From NCBI GenBank assembly GCA_026195895.1, contig JAPHRO010000008.1:1-49701 (forward strand): DNA of 49,701 bases. Direction: 5' to 3'. The DNA is from Gammaproteobacteria bacterium (GTDB lineage: Bacteria > Pseudomonadota > Gammaproteobacteria > SZUA-229). The number at the start of each line of letters is the position of its first letter. Positions within the stretch are counted from its first letter, which is position 1. The notes under the pieces are model-generated. The model ran no database searches. It worked only from the letters and a program-made list of their open reading frames with translations, and had not been told where the DNA came from. The position numbers were made by a program, and so were the translations under genes. This document shows positions 172-5,842 of the stretch, one piece after another.

Positions 172-1422
172 TTATGCTTCAGCTTTACGCTCGAACCATT
201 TAATAGCTTCGTCATCCCATCCGTCCATACGAACGTAAGAGCTTTGGCGAGTGTTGCTAACCATGTTTGGATCAACATCGATATCGATACCTTCCAGGAA
301 GTTAACCAGACCGATACGCTCGATCATTTCACCACAACGCTCATGCTCCAGGCCGTTTTCTGCCCAGAAATCAATGATTTCTTCAGCCAGCTCAACCAGT
401 TCTTCGTAATCGTCAGTCGTATCCAGTTTCTTAAATGGGATAATAACAGTACCCATCAGGTCACCGATTTTCAGTGTGCGTTTGCCACCGACCAGAATAG
501 TAACGCCTTTGTCTGTACCTGTACGCAGTGCTTTAGGCATTACGTTGATGCAGTGCATGCAGCGAACACAGTTGCGGTTATCAACAGCAATAGTGTCATC
601 GTCATTTAGCGCAAGCGCCTGAGTTGGACAACGAGTGATCACGTTGTCGATGATGTATTGACGGCCTTTAGCTTCAACGTAGTTTTTGAATTCAGCCTGG
701 TCAACACGCATGTCATCACGCCATGTGCCGATAATAGCCATGTCAGCACGTTCGATAGAGTTCTGACAGTCGTTAGGGCAACCCGATACTTTGAATTTGA
801 ATTTGTATGGCAGGGCAGGACGATGAACGTCATCAGTGAAGTTATTTACCAGCCAACGCTGAATAGCATGCTCGTTACAGTTAGACATTTCGCAACGCGC
901 CGCGCCTACACATGACATAGCAGTACGTACACATGGGCCAGCACCACCAAGGTCCCAGCCGTACTCATTGATTTCGTCGAAGAAAGTCTGAGTTTTTTCA
1001 GTAGTCGTACCGATGAACATGATGTTACCCGTCTGGCCGTGGAAAGTAACAAGGCCAGAACCGTGTTTTTCCCAGTCGTCAGCTAGCTGGTTCAGCATGT
1101 CTGTAGTGTAGTAATTACCTGGGCTAGGCTGTACACGCAGTGTATGGAATTCTTTAGATTCAGGGAAAGCATCTGCTACTTCAGAGAAACGTGGAATGAT
1201 ACCGCCGCCATATCCGTATACAGATACGGTGCCGCCTTTCCAGTAACCTTTGCGAGTTTCATAAGAGTGTTCTAGCTGACCTAACAGAGAACTAGTTACA
1301 TCATTGATGAATTGGTTTTCATGGTTATCACGCAGAGCTTTAATACCAGAAATGAATGAGGGCCAGGGACCTTCTTCAAGTACGTCAAGCATCGGTGTTT
1401 CATAGATCTTTTTTGCTGCCAT
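172..1422 (-). CDS. dsrA: Dissimilatory sulfite reductase alpha subunit
   Basis: A 416-residue protein with the full DsrA signature. Cysteines 171/177 (C-X5-C) and 215/219 (C-X3-C, in SGCPNDC) are the sirohaem-[4Fe-4S] ligands of the sulfite reductase fold. A ferredoxin-type insert follows, with C265 and the group C285, C288, C291. I chose the start at 1422 because GGAGATCGCC precedes the ATG and the protein then begins with MAAKKIYETPMLD, as in other DsrA proteins; an open frame continues upstream to 1512 but looks non-coding. The gene comes first, ahead of dsrB, as is usual. The dsrS-like gene, NarXL and nap context favour the oxidative (reverse) enzyme of sulfur-oxidising gammaproteobacteria, but direction of catalysis cannot be proven from this gene without a tree. 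Confidence 0.95.
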   Translation of the reverse strand: MAAKKIYETPMLDVLEEGPWPSFISGIKALRDNHENQFINDVTSSLLGQLEHSYETRKGYWKGGTVSVYGYGGGIIPRFSEVADAFPESKEFHTLRVQPSPGNYYTTDMLNQLADDWEKHGSGLVTFHGQTGNIMFIGTTTEKTQTFFDEINEYGWDLGGAGPCVRTAMSCVGAARCEMSNCNEHAIQRWLVNNFTDDVHRPALPYKFKFKVSGCPNDCQNSIERADMAIIGTWRDDMRVDQAEFKNYVEAKGRQYIIDNVITRCPTQALALNDDDTIAVDNRNCVRCMHCINVMPKALRTGTDKGVTILVGGKRTLKIGDLMGTVIIPFKKLDTTDDYEELVELAEEIIDFWAENGLEHERCGEMIERIGLVNFLEGIDIDVDPNMVSNTRQSSYVRMDGWDDEAIKWFERKAEA

Positions 1423-1626
1423 GGCGATCTCCGTAGTAGGGACGACAGGTTTATCAAGGGGGGGGCTTAATGCCTGGTCCCTTTGTGTCTTTAATGTAAT
1501 GGCCGAAGCCATACGGTTTATAAATCTTTCTGAGTTAACAACAGCCGGACTGTCGTTACCCCTTATTCAGTGCGGTGCATTCTAGGACTACTGGTCAAGT
1601 CAGAACATCCTACCCTTGGGAGGGGA

Positions 1627-1844: not shown

Positions 1845-1855
1845 ATGTGTTTTTA

Positions 1856-2755
1856 ATGAGTGGGGAAGGTTTGTTGTCAGATACGTTTTTCTTAACCGCT
1901 AATAATGCGGCATATCAAAAATGGCGGGCCAGTAAGTTATCAGCTTACCCTGTTGAAATCGAAGATGTGACGGTAGACATTGATGGGCCTTTCCCGACGG
2001 TGGGTGAACTAAGATCTATCAGCCAGTTGACCGAGAAGACTAATTTTGCCATTTATCGCTTACGAAAACCGGAGGATGGCACTAAGGGATTTGTGCGTAG
2101 TCTGGGAGAAAAACTTGGCCTGGCTGATATCGACGATAATTTATGTGCTGACGAAGATAGCGTGACCTCACTGCAGGTGATGGATACGGGTCGTCATACC
2201 GGCTACATTCCTTATACCAGTCGAAGGCTGAGCTGGCATACCGATGGCTATTACAACACACCAGAACAGCAGGTCAGAGGTGTTGTTCTGCATTGCGTAC
2301 GACCGGCGGCTGAGGGTGGAGAAAATCTGCTGCTCGATCATGAAATTGCCTATTTGCAATTACGCGATGAAAACCCTGACTATATAAAGGTGTTAATGCG
2401 AAATAACGCCATGACTATTCCGCCAAATATCGAAAATGGTCAGCAAATCCGCGGCGAGCAGACGGGACCGGTATTTTCCATTGAAAAAACTAACGGTCAT
2501 CTCCATATGAGATATTCAGCACGAACTCGAAATATCGTATGGTTCGACGATGAGCTGACCCGTGAAGCGGTGGCCTGTCTGAATAGCCTGCTCACCGAAA
2601 ATAACCCCTATGTTTTTAGCTACAGGATGCAGGCTGGTGAAGGTATAATTAGCAACAATGTATTGCATAATCGTACGAGCTTCAAAGATAGCGAGCAGGA
2701 AGGTCAGGGGCGACTACTTTATAGAGCGCGCTACTTCAATAGAGTAAAAGGTTAA
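1856..2755 (+). CDS. TauD/TfdA-family Fe(II)/2-oxoglutarate dioxygenase
   Basis: About 299 residues. The family's iron-binding facial triad is visible: H128 and D130 in WHTDGYY, and a distal histidine near residue 272 in NNVLHNRTSF. A conserved arginine-rich end (RLLYRARYF) probably binds the 2-oxoglutarate carboxylate. Family members hydroxylate small organic substrates (for example taurine) with release of CO2 and succinate; the substrate here cannot be read from the sequence. The start is uncertain: GTG 1847, ATG 1856 or TTG 1871, the last having the best ribosome site. The gene is divergent from dsrAB and precedes a Cas6-like and a DsrC-like gene, so a link to sulfur metabolism is possible but only by position. 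Confidence 0.75.
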   Translation: MSGEGLLSDTFFLTANNAAYQKWRASKLSAYPVEIEDVTVDIDGPFPTVGELRSISQLTEKTNFAIYRLRKPEDGTKGFVRSLGEKLGLADIDDNLCADEDSVTSLQVMDTGRHTGYIPYTSRRLSWHTDGYYNTPEQQVRGVVLHCVRPAAEGGENLLLDHEIAYLQLRDENPDYIKVLMRNNAMTIPPNIENGQQIRGEQTGPVFSIEKTNGHLHMRYSARTRNIVWFDDELTREAVACLNSLLTENNPYVFSYRMQAGEGIISNNVLHNRTSFKDSEQEGQGRLLYRARYFNRVKG

Positions 2756-2765
2756 TGTTAAAGAA

Positions 2766-2960
2766 ATGTTTTATCTAAGTGATGTTTTAAAGCAGGAGCA
2801 TGAAATCGATAATTTTCAGGATTTTCTGGAAGTGTTACGCGTAAAGGCGCGCCAGGGTGAAATCCATATGAATATTGATGTAAGGCCGCCCTTTAAAGAT
2901 ACGCCGAAAGACTGGGAGAATGTCGTAGAAGTGGCGTTTACCTTTCCCAATCGCTCCTGA
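2766..2960 (+). CDS. Hypothetical 64-residue protein
   Basis: This small acidic protein (MFYLSDVLKQEHEIDNFQ...) follows the dioxygenase after 10 bases and is probably translated from the same mRNA. It has no signal peptide, no membrane segment and no cysteines. The ribosome site (AAAG) is weak. I do not recognise the family. The tight spacing and the protein-like composition, including a proline-rich middle (RPPFKDTPKDW), support a real gene. Confidence 0.55.
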   Translation: MFYLSDVLKQEHEIDNFQDFLEVLRVKARQGEIHMNIDVRPPFKDTPKDWENVVEVAFTFPNRS

Positions 2961-3017: not shown

Positions 3018-3731
3018 ATGTTGTGGGAAGAAGATAAAAAGCAGAAAGCCTTTGTAGTGCCTGATGATGTGGCTGACCTGTCATTCAAGCTTGACTGTAA
3101 GCGCATAGCGCTGGATCACGCTTATGATTTGTTCCAGGCATTGTCTGCAGCATTGCCCTGGTTAGCCAGTGAAGACCGGGCCGGAGTGCATCTGGTTCAT
3201 GGCGCCTCCACCGGTAATGGCTGGCAAAGACCGGAAGAGACCGATGGAGAGAATTTTATCTACTTATCCCGTAGATCCCGTATGCATCTCCGTCTACCCA
3301 AAGAGCGTTATGAGGATGCTAAGCAACTGATTGGTCAAACGCTGGATATTGGTGGTTATGAATTGACGGTGGGTGAGTACCAGATTAAGCCTTTGACTTC
3401 ACAGGGTACTTTGTTTTCACGTTATATTTTACTGGCAGACAATGAGACCGAAGACCAGATGGTTGAGCGTGTTGCCGAAGAAATGAAAACCATGGGTATT
3501 AACCTGAAAAAGGCGCTGGCAGGTATTGATAATGAATTCGCCTCACCCAATGGCAAGATGCGTACCATGAGTTTGATGGTAGCCGATCTGGATCCGGATG
3601 AAGCTGTGACCTTGCAGCAAAAAGGTGTCGGTGAAGGTCGTAAAATGGGTTTTGGATTGTTTATTCCCCATAAAGGCATCAGGCCAGTGGGTGATATGTC
3701 TGAGCAGTCTCACTTTAGCGGTGCTAAGTAA
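3018..3731 (+). CDS. Orphan Cas6-like RAMP protein (Cas6/Cmx6, type I-MYXAN-like)
   Basis: 237 residues whose pattern matches, from memory, the Cas6/Cmx6 family of CRISPR RNA endonucleases. It has an N-terminal ferredoxin-like fold with LDHAYDLFQALS (D33, H34) and LPWL, a central SRRSRMHLRLP segment, TLDIGGYEL, and a C-terminal glycine-rich RAMP loop KGVGEGRKMGFGLFIPHKGI (residues 202-221). Cas6 proteins bind repeat hairpins and cut pre-crRNA at the 3' side of the stem. No CRISPR repeats and no other cas genes occur anywhere in this window. Instead the gene stands between dsrAB and a DsrC-like gene, with about 57 bases to the preceding small gene. H34 is the most obvious candidate catalytic residue. 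I infer a stand-alone RNA-binding or RNA-processing role; family membership is fairly sure, function is not. Confidence 0.7.
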   Translation: MLWEEDKKQKAFVVPDDVADLSFKLDCKRIALDHAYDLFQALSAALPWLASEDRAGVHLVHGASTGNGWQRPEETDGENFIYLSRRSRMHLRLPKERYEDAKQLIGQTLDIGGYELTVGEYQIKPLTSQGTLFSRYILLADNETEDQMVERVAEEMKTMGINLKKALAGIDNEFASPNGKMRTMSLMVADLDPDEAVTLQQKGVGEGRKMGFGLFIPHKGIRPVGDMSEQSHFSGAK

Positions 3732-3908
3732 CTTATTGATAAATAATGAGTTTACGGCTTAAAGTGTTTTGTTAAGTCGAGTTTCGCCTATCTATTTTGT
3801 ATCAACCTTATATAACCAATGGGATAAGTGACATTTAGCTTCGATTATGGGAGAGTATGCGCCCAATAATTTCCATTGATTACAAACAACCGAGATCGAG
3901 GCAGAATT

Positions 3909-4229
3909 ATGGGACTTGAGTCAGTCGAAAGAACAGAAGAAGGCTACCTGGTAAATTCAGGTGATTGGAACGAAGAAATTGGCGCGGCGGTTTTCGCTGA
4001 AGAAGGTATCGAGCCAACTCAGGAACACTGGGATGTAGTTAAGTATGTTCGTGAGGAAACACTGGGCGGCAACGAGCCTAACGAGCGCAGCATCATGAAA
4101 GCGATGGGCAAAATCTGGGGGCGTAAAGTATCGTCCAAGGAAATGTATGAGATGTTTCCTGGCATGCCGTCCAAGCAGGGCCTGAAAATTGGCGGTTGCC
4201 CAAAGAGTACACGTAAAGGCGGCTACTAG
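3909..4229 (+). CDS. DsrC/TusE-family protein lacking both canonical cysteines (RspA-like)
   Basis: 106 residues with the DsrC fold signature: EGYLVNSGDWNEEIG near the start, EEGIEPTQEHWDVVKYVRE in the middle, and a basic C-terminal arm. DsrC normally carries sulfur on a penultimate cysteine that pairs with a second cysteine in KQACKIAG-type sequence. Here that site reads KQGLKIGG (L92), and the tail ends in RKGGY without the terminal cysteine. One cysteine remains, C97, shifted to a place where DsrC has a hydrophobic residue. The canonical trisulfide chemistry therefore seems impossible. Regulatory DsrC-like proteins (RspA) are known to lack such cysteines, which is the likeliest class. The start at 3909 is set by GAGG eight bases upstream. 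Confidence 0.85.
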   Translation: MGLESVERTEEGYLVNSGDWNEEIGAAVFAEEGIEPTQEHWDVVKYVREETLGGNEPNERSIMKAMGKIWGRKVSSKEMYEMFPGMPSKQGLKIGGCPKSTRKGGY

Positions 4230-4370
4230 GATTGAATTCTGGAGCTGTTTACAGACTTTGTCCTCTATTCCCATTGGGGTAGAGGCAAAGTGATCAATTT
4301 CCGGCTATACTTCGCCCACCTGGTCGAAAACCATCCCGGATTACATTTAAAGACTTCATGAGGTGAAGCC

Positions 4371-4574
4371 ATGAGCGATAGAGCTACGTTAATTAAAGAA
4401 CTAATTGAAATGCAGAAGAAGTTTATTGAAAATGAACATAAAAACGGCTTCAATGCACAAGAGTACTTCACGCCTGAGTCTGGTACTGTATTAGACGGTT
4501 ACCGTGAAACTTTTAATACAAAATCTCAGGAGCTGGTAGATGCAGCTCATGCAGATAAAGGTTCACACCGTTAA
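4371..4574 (+). CDS. Hypothetical 67-residue protein
   Basis: A small, charged, probably helical cytoplasmic protein (MSDRATLIKELIEMQKKFIE...) with a strong AGGTGA ribosome site upstream and a clear terminator 23 bases after its stop. It has no cysteine and no membrane segment. It ends the plus-strand set beside dsrAB. I do not recognise a named family; conservation with dsr genes in other sulfur oxidisers would be worth checking. Good translation signals make it a real gene. Confidence 0.7.
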   Translation: MSDRATLIKELIEMQKKFIENEHKNGFNAQEYFTPESGTVLDGYRETFNTKSQELVDAAHADKGSHR

Positions 4575-4596: not shown

Positions 4597-4625
4597 AAAA
4601 AAGCCGCTTATTTAGCGGCTTTTTT
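4597..4625 (+). terminator. Rho-independent terminator
   Basis: A-rich flank, then GCCGCT / AGCGGC stem with a five-base TATTT loop, followed by six Ts. The A-run and T-run extend the stem, so it could work in both directions. It closes the plus-strand gene set and also lies beyond the 3' end of the minus-strand hydroxylase gene. Confidence 0.9.
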
Positions 4626-4645
4626 ATTGCCTGGAAAAAAGATTT

Positions 4646-4759: not shown

Positions 4760-5434
4760 TTAAATCTCAGCCCACATACGCATTAGATTAATGTAGGTAT
4801 GGTCAAGCCGGGTCGTTTCTTCATCATCGGGCATTTTTTTCTGTAAAGCATCGCGGGTGCGGTACAGTTCGTAGAGTAATTCCCGTTTAGCCGGATCACG
4901 CACCATGCTTTGTGTCCAGGTGACTGCCACCAGACGCGTACCGTCGGTCACTTCTGCCACATGATGCAGGCTGCCCGATGGGTAAGTGATGGCGTCCCCC
5001 GCGGCCAGTTTGACTTTGCGTTCACCATATTGGGTATGAATGACCGTTTCACCGCCTGCATATTCATCGGGTTCATTTAAGAATACCGTGGTGGAAACAT
5101 CGGTACGGTAGCGGCCATTCATTGGCCCCATAATCGGGTCGTCCACATGATCGCCATAGTATTGCCCCTTGCCATAGCGTGCGTAAAAGGGGGTGGCGAC
5201 CCGATGCGGTATAACACCGGCCTGAAAAACAGGATGGTTGTACAAAGCGTTCATCACGATATGATTTAGCTGATTTAAAACCTGTGCATCCTGAGGTATT
5301 TCCTCATTGTTTTTTACTTTACGAGCAGTTAGCCCAGCAGACAGGCGACCATCAACAAAGCGAGAGTTATTGAGTATTTCACGTACTTTTTTAAGTTGTT
5401 TCTGATCAAGGATACCGGGGATGGGTAACAGCAT
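4760..5434 (-). CDS. PKHD-type Fe(II)/2-oxoglutarate hydroxylase (YbiX/PiuC family)
   Basis: 224 residues matching the YbiX/PiuC hydroxylase family throughout: MLLPIPGILD start, FVDGRLSAG, then the iron triad H96 and D98 (GDHVDDP), a histidine at 157 or 158 (GSLHHVAEV) and R167 for 2-oxoglutarate. These proteins are often found with iron-siderophore uptake genes, but none is present here and the substrate is not known. The start at 5434 has GGAGATATT just upstream; an open frame to 5542 extends past it but runs into the neighbouring promoter region. The 81-base gap to the divergent gene at 5516 contains TATAAT at 5479-5484. Confidence 0.88.
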   Translation of the reverse strand: MLLPIPGILDQKQLKKVREILNNSRFVDGRLSAGLTARKVKNNEEIPQDAQVLNQLNHIVMNALYNHPVFQAGVIPHRVATPFYARYGKGQYYGDHVDDPIMGPMNGRYRTDVSTTVFLNEPDEYAGGETVIHTQYGERKVKLAAGDAITYPSGSLHHVAEVTDGTRLVAVTWTQSMVRDPAKRELLYELYRTRDALQKKMPDDEETTRLDHTYINLMRMWAEI

Positions 5435-5515
5435 AATATCTCCAAATTCATTCAGGAACTTAATCAGAAACCATCTGATATAATTGCGCCAAATTTTTTT
5501 AATGAGCTTACAACA

Positions 5516-5842
5516 ATGATATTGAATATTACCATCGATCAAGAGTCCTATGAACTGGAAGTAAAACAGGAATTACTTGATGAGTTAAAATCTTTTTTTG
5601 AGGATATGGATAAAGAATACGATCGAGGCGTACAAATGGGGCGTTTCTGGGTGGAATCGCCGGATGACGAACAACGTTGCCAGGTGGCGGTTAACAAGCT
5701 GGTCAATGCCATGTACAGCGAGGACAAGCGTAGTTTATATATCATGGCGGCTTATATCGTTTCTAAATTTCCAGATGTTAAAGAACTTATCTACAACTCG
5801 GAATATGAAATGCAGGAAATTGATATTCAATTGCATGGGTGA
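5516..5842 (+). CDS. Hypothetical 108-residue cytoplasmic protein
   Basis: This acidic protein ([38 protein letters not shown]...) is mostly helical in appearance, with no signal peptide or membrane segment and a single cysteine. A TATAAT at 5479-5484 may be its -10 box. Its stop overlaps a GTG codon in the frame of the next gene, which hints at translational coupling. I do not recognise a named domain. Confidence 0.7.

Follow-up and report, generated by a model that had tools for sequence, protein, structure and literature searches.

Why would a gene with the features of Cas6 lie among sulfur-oxidation genes, in a stretch of gammaproteobacterial DNA (contig JAPHRO010000008.1, 49,701 nucleotides; hereafter the window) where a direct-repeat search and an array scan found no CRISPR-like array? 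The only activity known for Cas6, to our knowledge, is the cutting of CRISPR RNA, and it is viewed as a maturase devoted to that task. A preliminary description of the window had placed the gene, free of CRISPR, between dsrAB and a DsrC-like gene. The placement stands with respect to dsrA and the DsrC-family gene, but the contig has practically none of dsrB: the window begins within the dsr operon, and a dsrB-like match is found on contig C24. The genes concerned are as follows.

172-1512, minus strand: dsrA, dissimilatory-type sulfite reductase alpha (TIGR02064, E 7e-184 from residue 42)
1847-2755, plus strand: TauD/TfdA-like 2-oxoglutarate Fe(II) dioxygenase, 302 aa (PF02668, E 9.9e-21)
2766-2960, plus strand: unannotated 64-aa ORF beginning MFYLSDVLKQEHEI, conserved between tauD and cas6
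3018-3731, plus strand: cas6-like gene (PF09559), 237 aa
3117-3119: codon of H34 in the cas6-like gene
3909-4229, plus strand: DsrC paralogue (PF04358, E 2.2e-23; also in the TusE/DsrC/DsvC family, TIGR03342)
4371-4574, plus strand: unannotated 67-aa ORF (c17), near the module 3' end in 66 of 95 loci

The true start of dsrA is likely at 1422 (MAAKKIYETP), about 30 codons inside the longest ORF, a placement that we infer, and the tauD-like gene may start at 1857 instead of 1847.

Sequence and predicted fold of the Cas6 protein

The family assignment, which had been made from motif patterns, was borne out by profile and structure searches. Pfam PF09559 matched residues 20-219, nearly the whole profile (E 8.8e-56; 189.3 bits vs. 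a cut-off of 26.7), NCBIfam TIGR02807 (cas6_cmx6) scored 110 bits, above its curated cut-off of 98.85, six PADLOC Cas6 models matched the protein, and a sequence search of the PDB returned one solved structure, 8fcj_B, the Cas6 of a type I-B CAST (E 1.7e-15). We additionally built an AlphaFold2 model from 23 orthologues (pLDDT 85), whose top matches in Foldseek and VIA were Cas6 structures and which displays the double ferredoxin-like RAMP fold. VIA aligned the model to 8fcj_B with Z 24.7 and an rmsd of 2.1 over 198 residues, and to 5yi6 with Z 16.9. By sequence, and by fold as modelled, the product of 3018-3731 is a Cas6. No relatives of the protein were confirmed among viral contigs.

Residues that would be expected of a working enzyme are conserved. 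H34, whose conservation the preliminary description had proposed to check, occurs in 63 of the 64 dsr-linked proteins (position equivalence by alignment) and in all 7 cyanobacterial-plasmid PF09559 proteins whose sequence extends this far (one from Gloeobacter and six linked to CRISPR); lying near the first helix, it would be a catalytic-type histidine. The C-terminal glycine-rich loop reads GVGEGRKMGFGLF, with G203, G205, G211 and G213 conserved in 98% or more, and R92, R135 and Q200 are, together with this loop, common to dsr-linked and CRISPR Cas6 proteins and almost fully conserved. In Haloferax volcanii Cas6, a histidine (H41) and two loop glycines (G256, G258) are essential (PMC3945376). 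The dsr lineage also has invariant residues of its own, namely W3, W48, H58, an NGW-x-RP stretch at residues 67-72, E145, K165 and an HK pair at 218-219, with NGW-x-RP mostly missing from CRISPR Cas6 proteins. Across five cas6 pairs dN/dS is about 0.04-0.08, a sign of strong purifying selection, and cas6 is therefore a working gene rather than debris.

Distribution across Gammaproteobacteria

Next, we surveyed 276 gammaproteobacterial genomes, at least 90% complete and drawn evenly across the class, using cas1 as a proxy for CRISPR; array scans covered the stretches fetched around cas6. PF09559 cas6 was found in 92 genomes and dsrA in 90, with both in 87, only cas6 in 5 and only dsrA in 3. The two genes are thus tightly associated (phi = 0.93, Fisher p = 2e-61, with related genomes in the sample and p-values that ignore phylogeny), while the association of cas6 with cas1 is negligible (phi = 0.07, p = 0.30, likewise uncorrected) and cas1 is absent from 51 of the 92 carriers. 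The expectation that the gene would co-occur with dsr rather than with CRISPR was therefore confirmed, and the class survey excludes that CRISPR arrays are its constant companions. Adjacent genes may be transferred or lost together, which could inflate the cas6-dsrA figure.

In seven of these eight exceptional genomes, the mismatch coincides with the end of a contig. In all three genomes with dsrA only, the contig stops on the side where cas6 normally sits: 631 bp past dsrA in G132, about 126 bp past dsrA in G222, and 221 bp past the 64-aa ORF in G144. Among those with cas6 only, the contig ends inside tauD or within about 0.4 kb of it in three (G097, G118, G148), G231 has a dsrA fragment truncated where its contig stops, and G299 (91% complete) is the sole case in which no contig end coincides.

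When both genes share a contig, dsrA lies 0.7-4.5 kb upstream of cas6 and is divergent in 65 of 66 cases. Such tight linkage in most genomes is what would be seen if cas6 persisted merely as a neighbour inherited in one block with dsrAB, as is the absence of cas6 from dsrA-bearing genomes outside the class. We nonetheless judge this explanation very improbable: cas6 is kept where dsrA lies on a different contig (21 genomes, some of which may be assembly breaks) or 40 kb away (G131), it is retained in genomes of about 1.0-1.1 Mb (G073, G162, G261, G289), and it is under strong purifying selection.

A wider sample of the phylum set the limits of the association. The four genomes of the same class that had dsrA all carried cas6, whereas a dsr-type cas6 was found in 0 of 32 dsrA-bearing genomes outside it, so that the dsr link first proposed holds within Gammaproteobacteria but not elsewhere in the phylum. 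Cas6 is therefore a class-level rather than a universal partner of dsr, and Dsr as such does not need it.

Independence from CRISPR

The claim that no CRISPR accompanies the gene is correct for the window, but not for the genome as a whole, which holds a type I-E locus on contig C84 (L068 5670-18267) with cas3, cas8e, cas11e, cas7e, cas5e, cas6e, cas1e and an array of about 59 repeats. We accordingly considered whether the window Cas6 processes crRNA in trans for arrays elsewhere, or is the remnant of a lost CRISPR locus. The annotation models that name it cas6_cmx6 and the array in its own genome would fit such a reading. Against it, the I-E locus has its own Cas6e and therefore does not need the window Cas6, cas1 shows no association and is missing from more than half of the carriers, and the low dN/dS speaks against a remnant. 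Nor did the fetched cas6 loci have an adjoining array, with the exception of a repeat about 6.7 kb away in one locus (L117). The gene sits with the dsr module in 95 loci rather than with cas genes or arrays. Taken together, CRISPR independence of the dsr-linked Cas6 is well supported, and we give processing in trans or a remnant origin hardly any credence.

The repeat in L117 (15598-15740, genome G122) is a 3-copy CRISPR-like repeat near the contig end. Its proximity to cas6 is likely due to chance, as G122 has cas1 elsewhere.

A conserved module around cas6

Comparing 95 loci, we found a recurrent gene order: divergent dsrAB, followed by tauD-like, 64-aa ORF, cas6, DsrC-like and 67-aa ORF. 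Within the scored distances, the tauD-like gene was counted in 69 loci, the 64-aa ORF in 72, the DsrC-like gene in 80, the 67-aa ORF in 66 and divergent dsrAB in 79. Three further genomes (L128-L130) have dsrAB, then cas6 and the DsrC-like gene, with tauD further downstream.

The tauD-like product is a TauD-type dioxygenase by its PF02668 match and by an HxD...H iron site that is present in 68 of 69 module copies. The 64-aa ORF had no match in Pfam, NCBIfam or PHROGs. It occurs in 82 of the 276 genomes, 81 of which carry cas6, and its product is predicted to be small and helical (model pLDDT 89.6); the model found no match in the PDB (best E 8.0), which is not evidence of a new fold. The 67-aa ORF likewise had no Pfam match, and both small ORFs are likely to be overlooked by annotation.

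The DsrC-like neighbour belongs to the PF04358 family of DsrC/TusE/RspA-type paralogues, RspA being presumably the name for those that lack the cysteines. CysA and CysB are both missing from it, and its C-terminus is KGGY. This terminus recurs in 78 of 80 module copies, and both cysteines are missing in 78 of 82 cas6-adjacent paralogues vs. both present in 29 of 31 operon DsrC proteins.

DsrEFH and DsrC are homologous to TusBCD and TusE. This homology, together with the membership of the adjoining gene in the TusE/DsrC/DsvC family, raises an alternative in which Cas6 acts on tRNA or in the 2-thiouridine (Tus/Mnm) pathway, processing or checking thiolated tRNA under a high sulfur-relay load. 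Two observations make us regard this alternative as improbable, namely that both relay cysteines are missing from the DsrC paralogue and that cas6 tracks dsrA only, whereas tRNA thiolation is general.

Several features were also seen at the downstream edge of the module. A strong terminator-like hairpin at 4598-4627 (AAAAAAGCCGCT...AGCGGCTTTTTT) directly follows the 67-aa ORF and marks the module end. Beyond it, a PKHD-type 2OG-Fe(II) oxygenase (4760-5542, minus strand) recurs beside the module in many loci, so that two oxygenases flank the Cas6 operon, as does a 108-aa protein (5516-5842, plus strand) without significant Pfam match.

The dsrA promoter and the search for an RNA target

It had been suggested that Cas6 might process the dsr transcript, and we examined the dsrA leader and the module for elements that could serve as its substrate. 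The following elements were located.

1579-1584, minus strand: predicted dsrA -10 element TAGAAT (class consensus TAGACT), 72 nt from the palindrome
1610-1625, unstranded: second conserved operator-like block CTACCCTTGGGAGGGG, near the -35 of the dsrA promoter, from alignments
1641-1656, unstranded: operator-like palindrome TACCCC-TAAT-GGGATA, upstream of the dsrA promoter
3811-3826, unstranded: weaker palindrome copy with 2 mismatches, in the cas6-dsrC intergenic region
4266-4281, unstranded: palindrome copy downstream of the DsrC-like gene and upstream of the predicted promoter of the 67-aa ORF

The form TATCCC-N4-GGGATA is perfect upstream of dsrA in 38 of 75 leaders and has at most one mismatch in 60 of 75, compared with 0.05 and 1.7, respectively, expected for 75 leaders from dinucleotide shuffles. 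In the genome of the window, the exact pattern has a single copy, the one at dsrA. Across loci, related copies lie downstream of the DsrC-like gene, ahead of the 67-aa ORF, with weaker ones before the DsrC-like gene. A TAnAcT -10 element follows the palindrome in 52 of the 60 leaders, at a spacing of exactly 72 nt in 43 of these 52 and of 73-74 nt in another 7. Across the 75 loci, a class-wide dsrA promoter (1579-1656 in the window) can be outlined, with the palindrome, a C-rich/GGGTAGG block near the -35 and a TAGACT -10 element at the fixed distance of 72 nt.

The conserved promoter elements probably serve as the operator for an activator that controls the dsr regulon. The dsrA and module promoters share this operator, which supports their co-regulation.

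The shape of the palindrome and its 4-nt loop resemble the stem-loops of Cmx6 CRISPR repeats, and we tried it as a Cas6 substrate for this reason. The rigid 72-nt spacing to the -10 element ruled it out as an RNA target, since a fixed distance of this kind makes it a promoter DNA operator outside the transcript; the stems of Cmx6 repeats also differ, being GATGCC-N4-GGCGTT in those of cyanobacterial plasmids.

No conserved RNA structure was found family-wide in the dsrA 5' leader, where signals were confined to groups of 2-5 near relatives, and RNAalifold gave no notable consensus for the cas6-dsrC intergenic region or the region downstream of dsrC. Rfam yielded no family, and its sRNA matches were at chance level, below gathering scores and all around the terminator at 4600. 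The suggested processing of the dsr transcript thus gained no support: no conserved RNA structure was found in the dsrA leader, and the best candidate hairpin is a promoter operator.

That neither Rfam nor the leader structure yielded an RNA substrate speaks for a further alternative, in which the Cas6 fold is kept as a non-cutting RNA-binding or scaffold subunit, such as a Dsr chaperone or an assembly factor acting with the KGGY-ending DsrC paralogue (DsrC-KGGY), as with some RAMP proteins. The invariant residues peculiar to the dsr lineage all lie outside the presumed catalytic site and suggest new contacts, and the histidine is missing from certain proteins of the Cas6 fold, 8fcj_B among them. 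The near-full conservation of H34, R92, R135, Q200 and the glycine loop is, however, difficult to account for if the protein neither contacts RNA nor acts as a catalyst, and we consider such a subunit rather unlikely, if worth keeping in mind.

A proposed role in sulfur oxidation

The explanation that we favour, and consider probable though by a long way not certain, is that a lineage of Cas6 left CRISPR and that, in Gammaproteobacteria, it is now a partner of reverse-Dsr sulfur oxidation that either cleaves or binds RNA of the cell. Sulfur-oxidising bacteria would, in other words, probably apply a CRISPR-type RNA enzyme to one of their own RNAs. Because the Cas6 fold, H34 and the glycine-rich loop have been kept, we propose that the protein binds a specific cellular RNA, or a small set of them, and most likely also cleaves what it binds, in the way that Cas6 cuts the CRISPR repeat. 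Cutting might mature an RNA or act as a post-transcriptional control, in either case in connection with dsr expression. DsrC-KGGY, being without cysteines, cannot carry sulfur in the manner of DsrC; it may instead be a protein adaptor, for instance one that docks on DsrC partners and makes Cas6 responsive to the state of the sulfur pathway. RNA cleavage, the identity of the RNA and the adaptor role of the DsrC paralogue are all inferred here.

A more speculative extension, to which we attach little probability, is a sulfur-responsive RNA switch in which DsrC-KGGY reads the state of the Dsr relay via DsrC partners and directs Cas6 to a specific RNA. If true, sulfur-oxidising Gammaproteobacteria would control their energy metabolism through RNA, by means of a CRISPR-derived enzyme.

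Relation to known Cas6 proteins

A maximum-likelihood tree separates 64 dsr-type sequences from 8 plasmid ones (7 CRISPR or CAST, 1 Gloeobacter) with support of 100/99; its inner order is not readable, as branches are long and the bootstrap has not settled. The Cas6/Cmx6 proteins of type I-MYXAN (I-B) on cyanobacterial plasmids belong to the same profile family and share the H34-type histidine, R92, R135, Q200 and the glycine loop, but their genes neighbour cas3, cas8, cas7, cas5, cas1, cas2 and arrays. The dsr-type Cas6, in contrast, has tauD, the 64-aa ORF and the DsrC paralogue as neighbours, forms a separate clade and carries the additional NGW-x-RP and terminal HK. The closest solved structure, 8fcj_B, differs in being part of a transposon Cascade and in having no histidine at position 34 (LDNG).

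The family of Cas6 was known already; it is the CRISPR-free, pathway-bound lineage and its module that appear to be new. In the open-access literature, we found no paper on dsr-linked or CRISPR-independent Cas6, a scope that does not prove absence. The NCBI family model labels the dsr-linked genes "type I-MYXAN Cas6/Cmx6", and this label misleads CRISPR surveys, since nearly every sampled PF09559 carrier in the class is a dsr organism. For sulfur oxidation, the analysis adds an unstudied, near-constant RNA-enzyme partner and four companion genes, two of them unannotated.

Other Cas families also occur outside CRISPR loci, such as solo-Cas4 (PMC5704561) and the cas1-solo of casposons (PMC9939771). 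Compared with these, the protein here is Cas6 and is bound to one metabolic pathway.

Finally, we observed a Cmx6-type Cas6 on the Gloeobacter morelensis plasmid pGMOR1 (L132 3974-4765) around which, out to 4 kb, no cas genes are annotated. It lies near a PAPS-reductase-family gene and a cupin gene, and it is possibly a second CRISPR-free use of Cas6.
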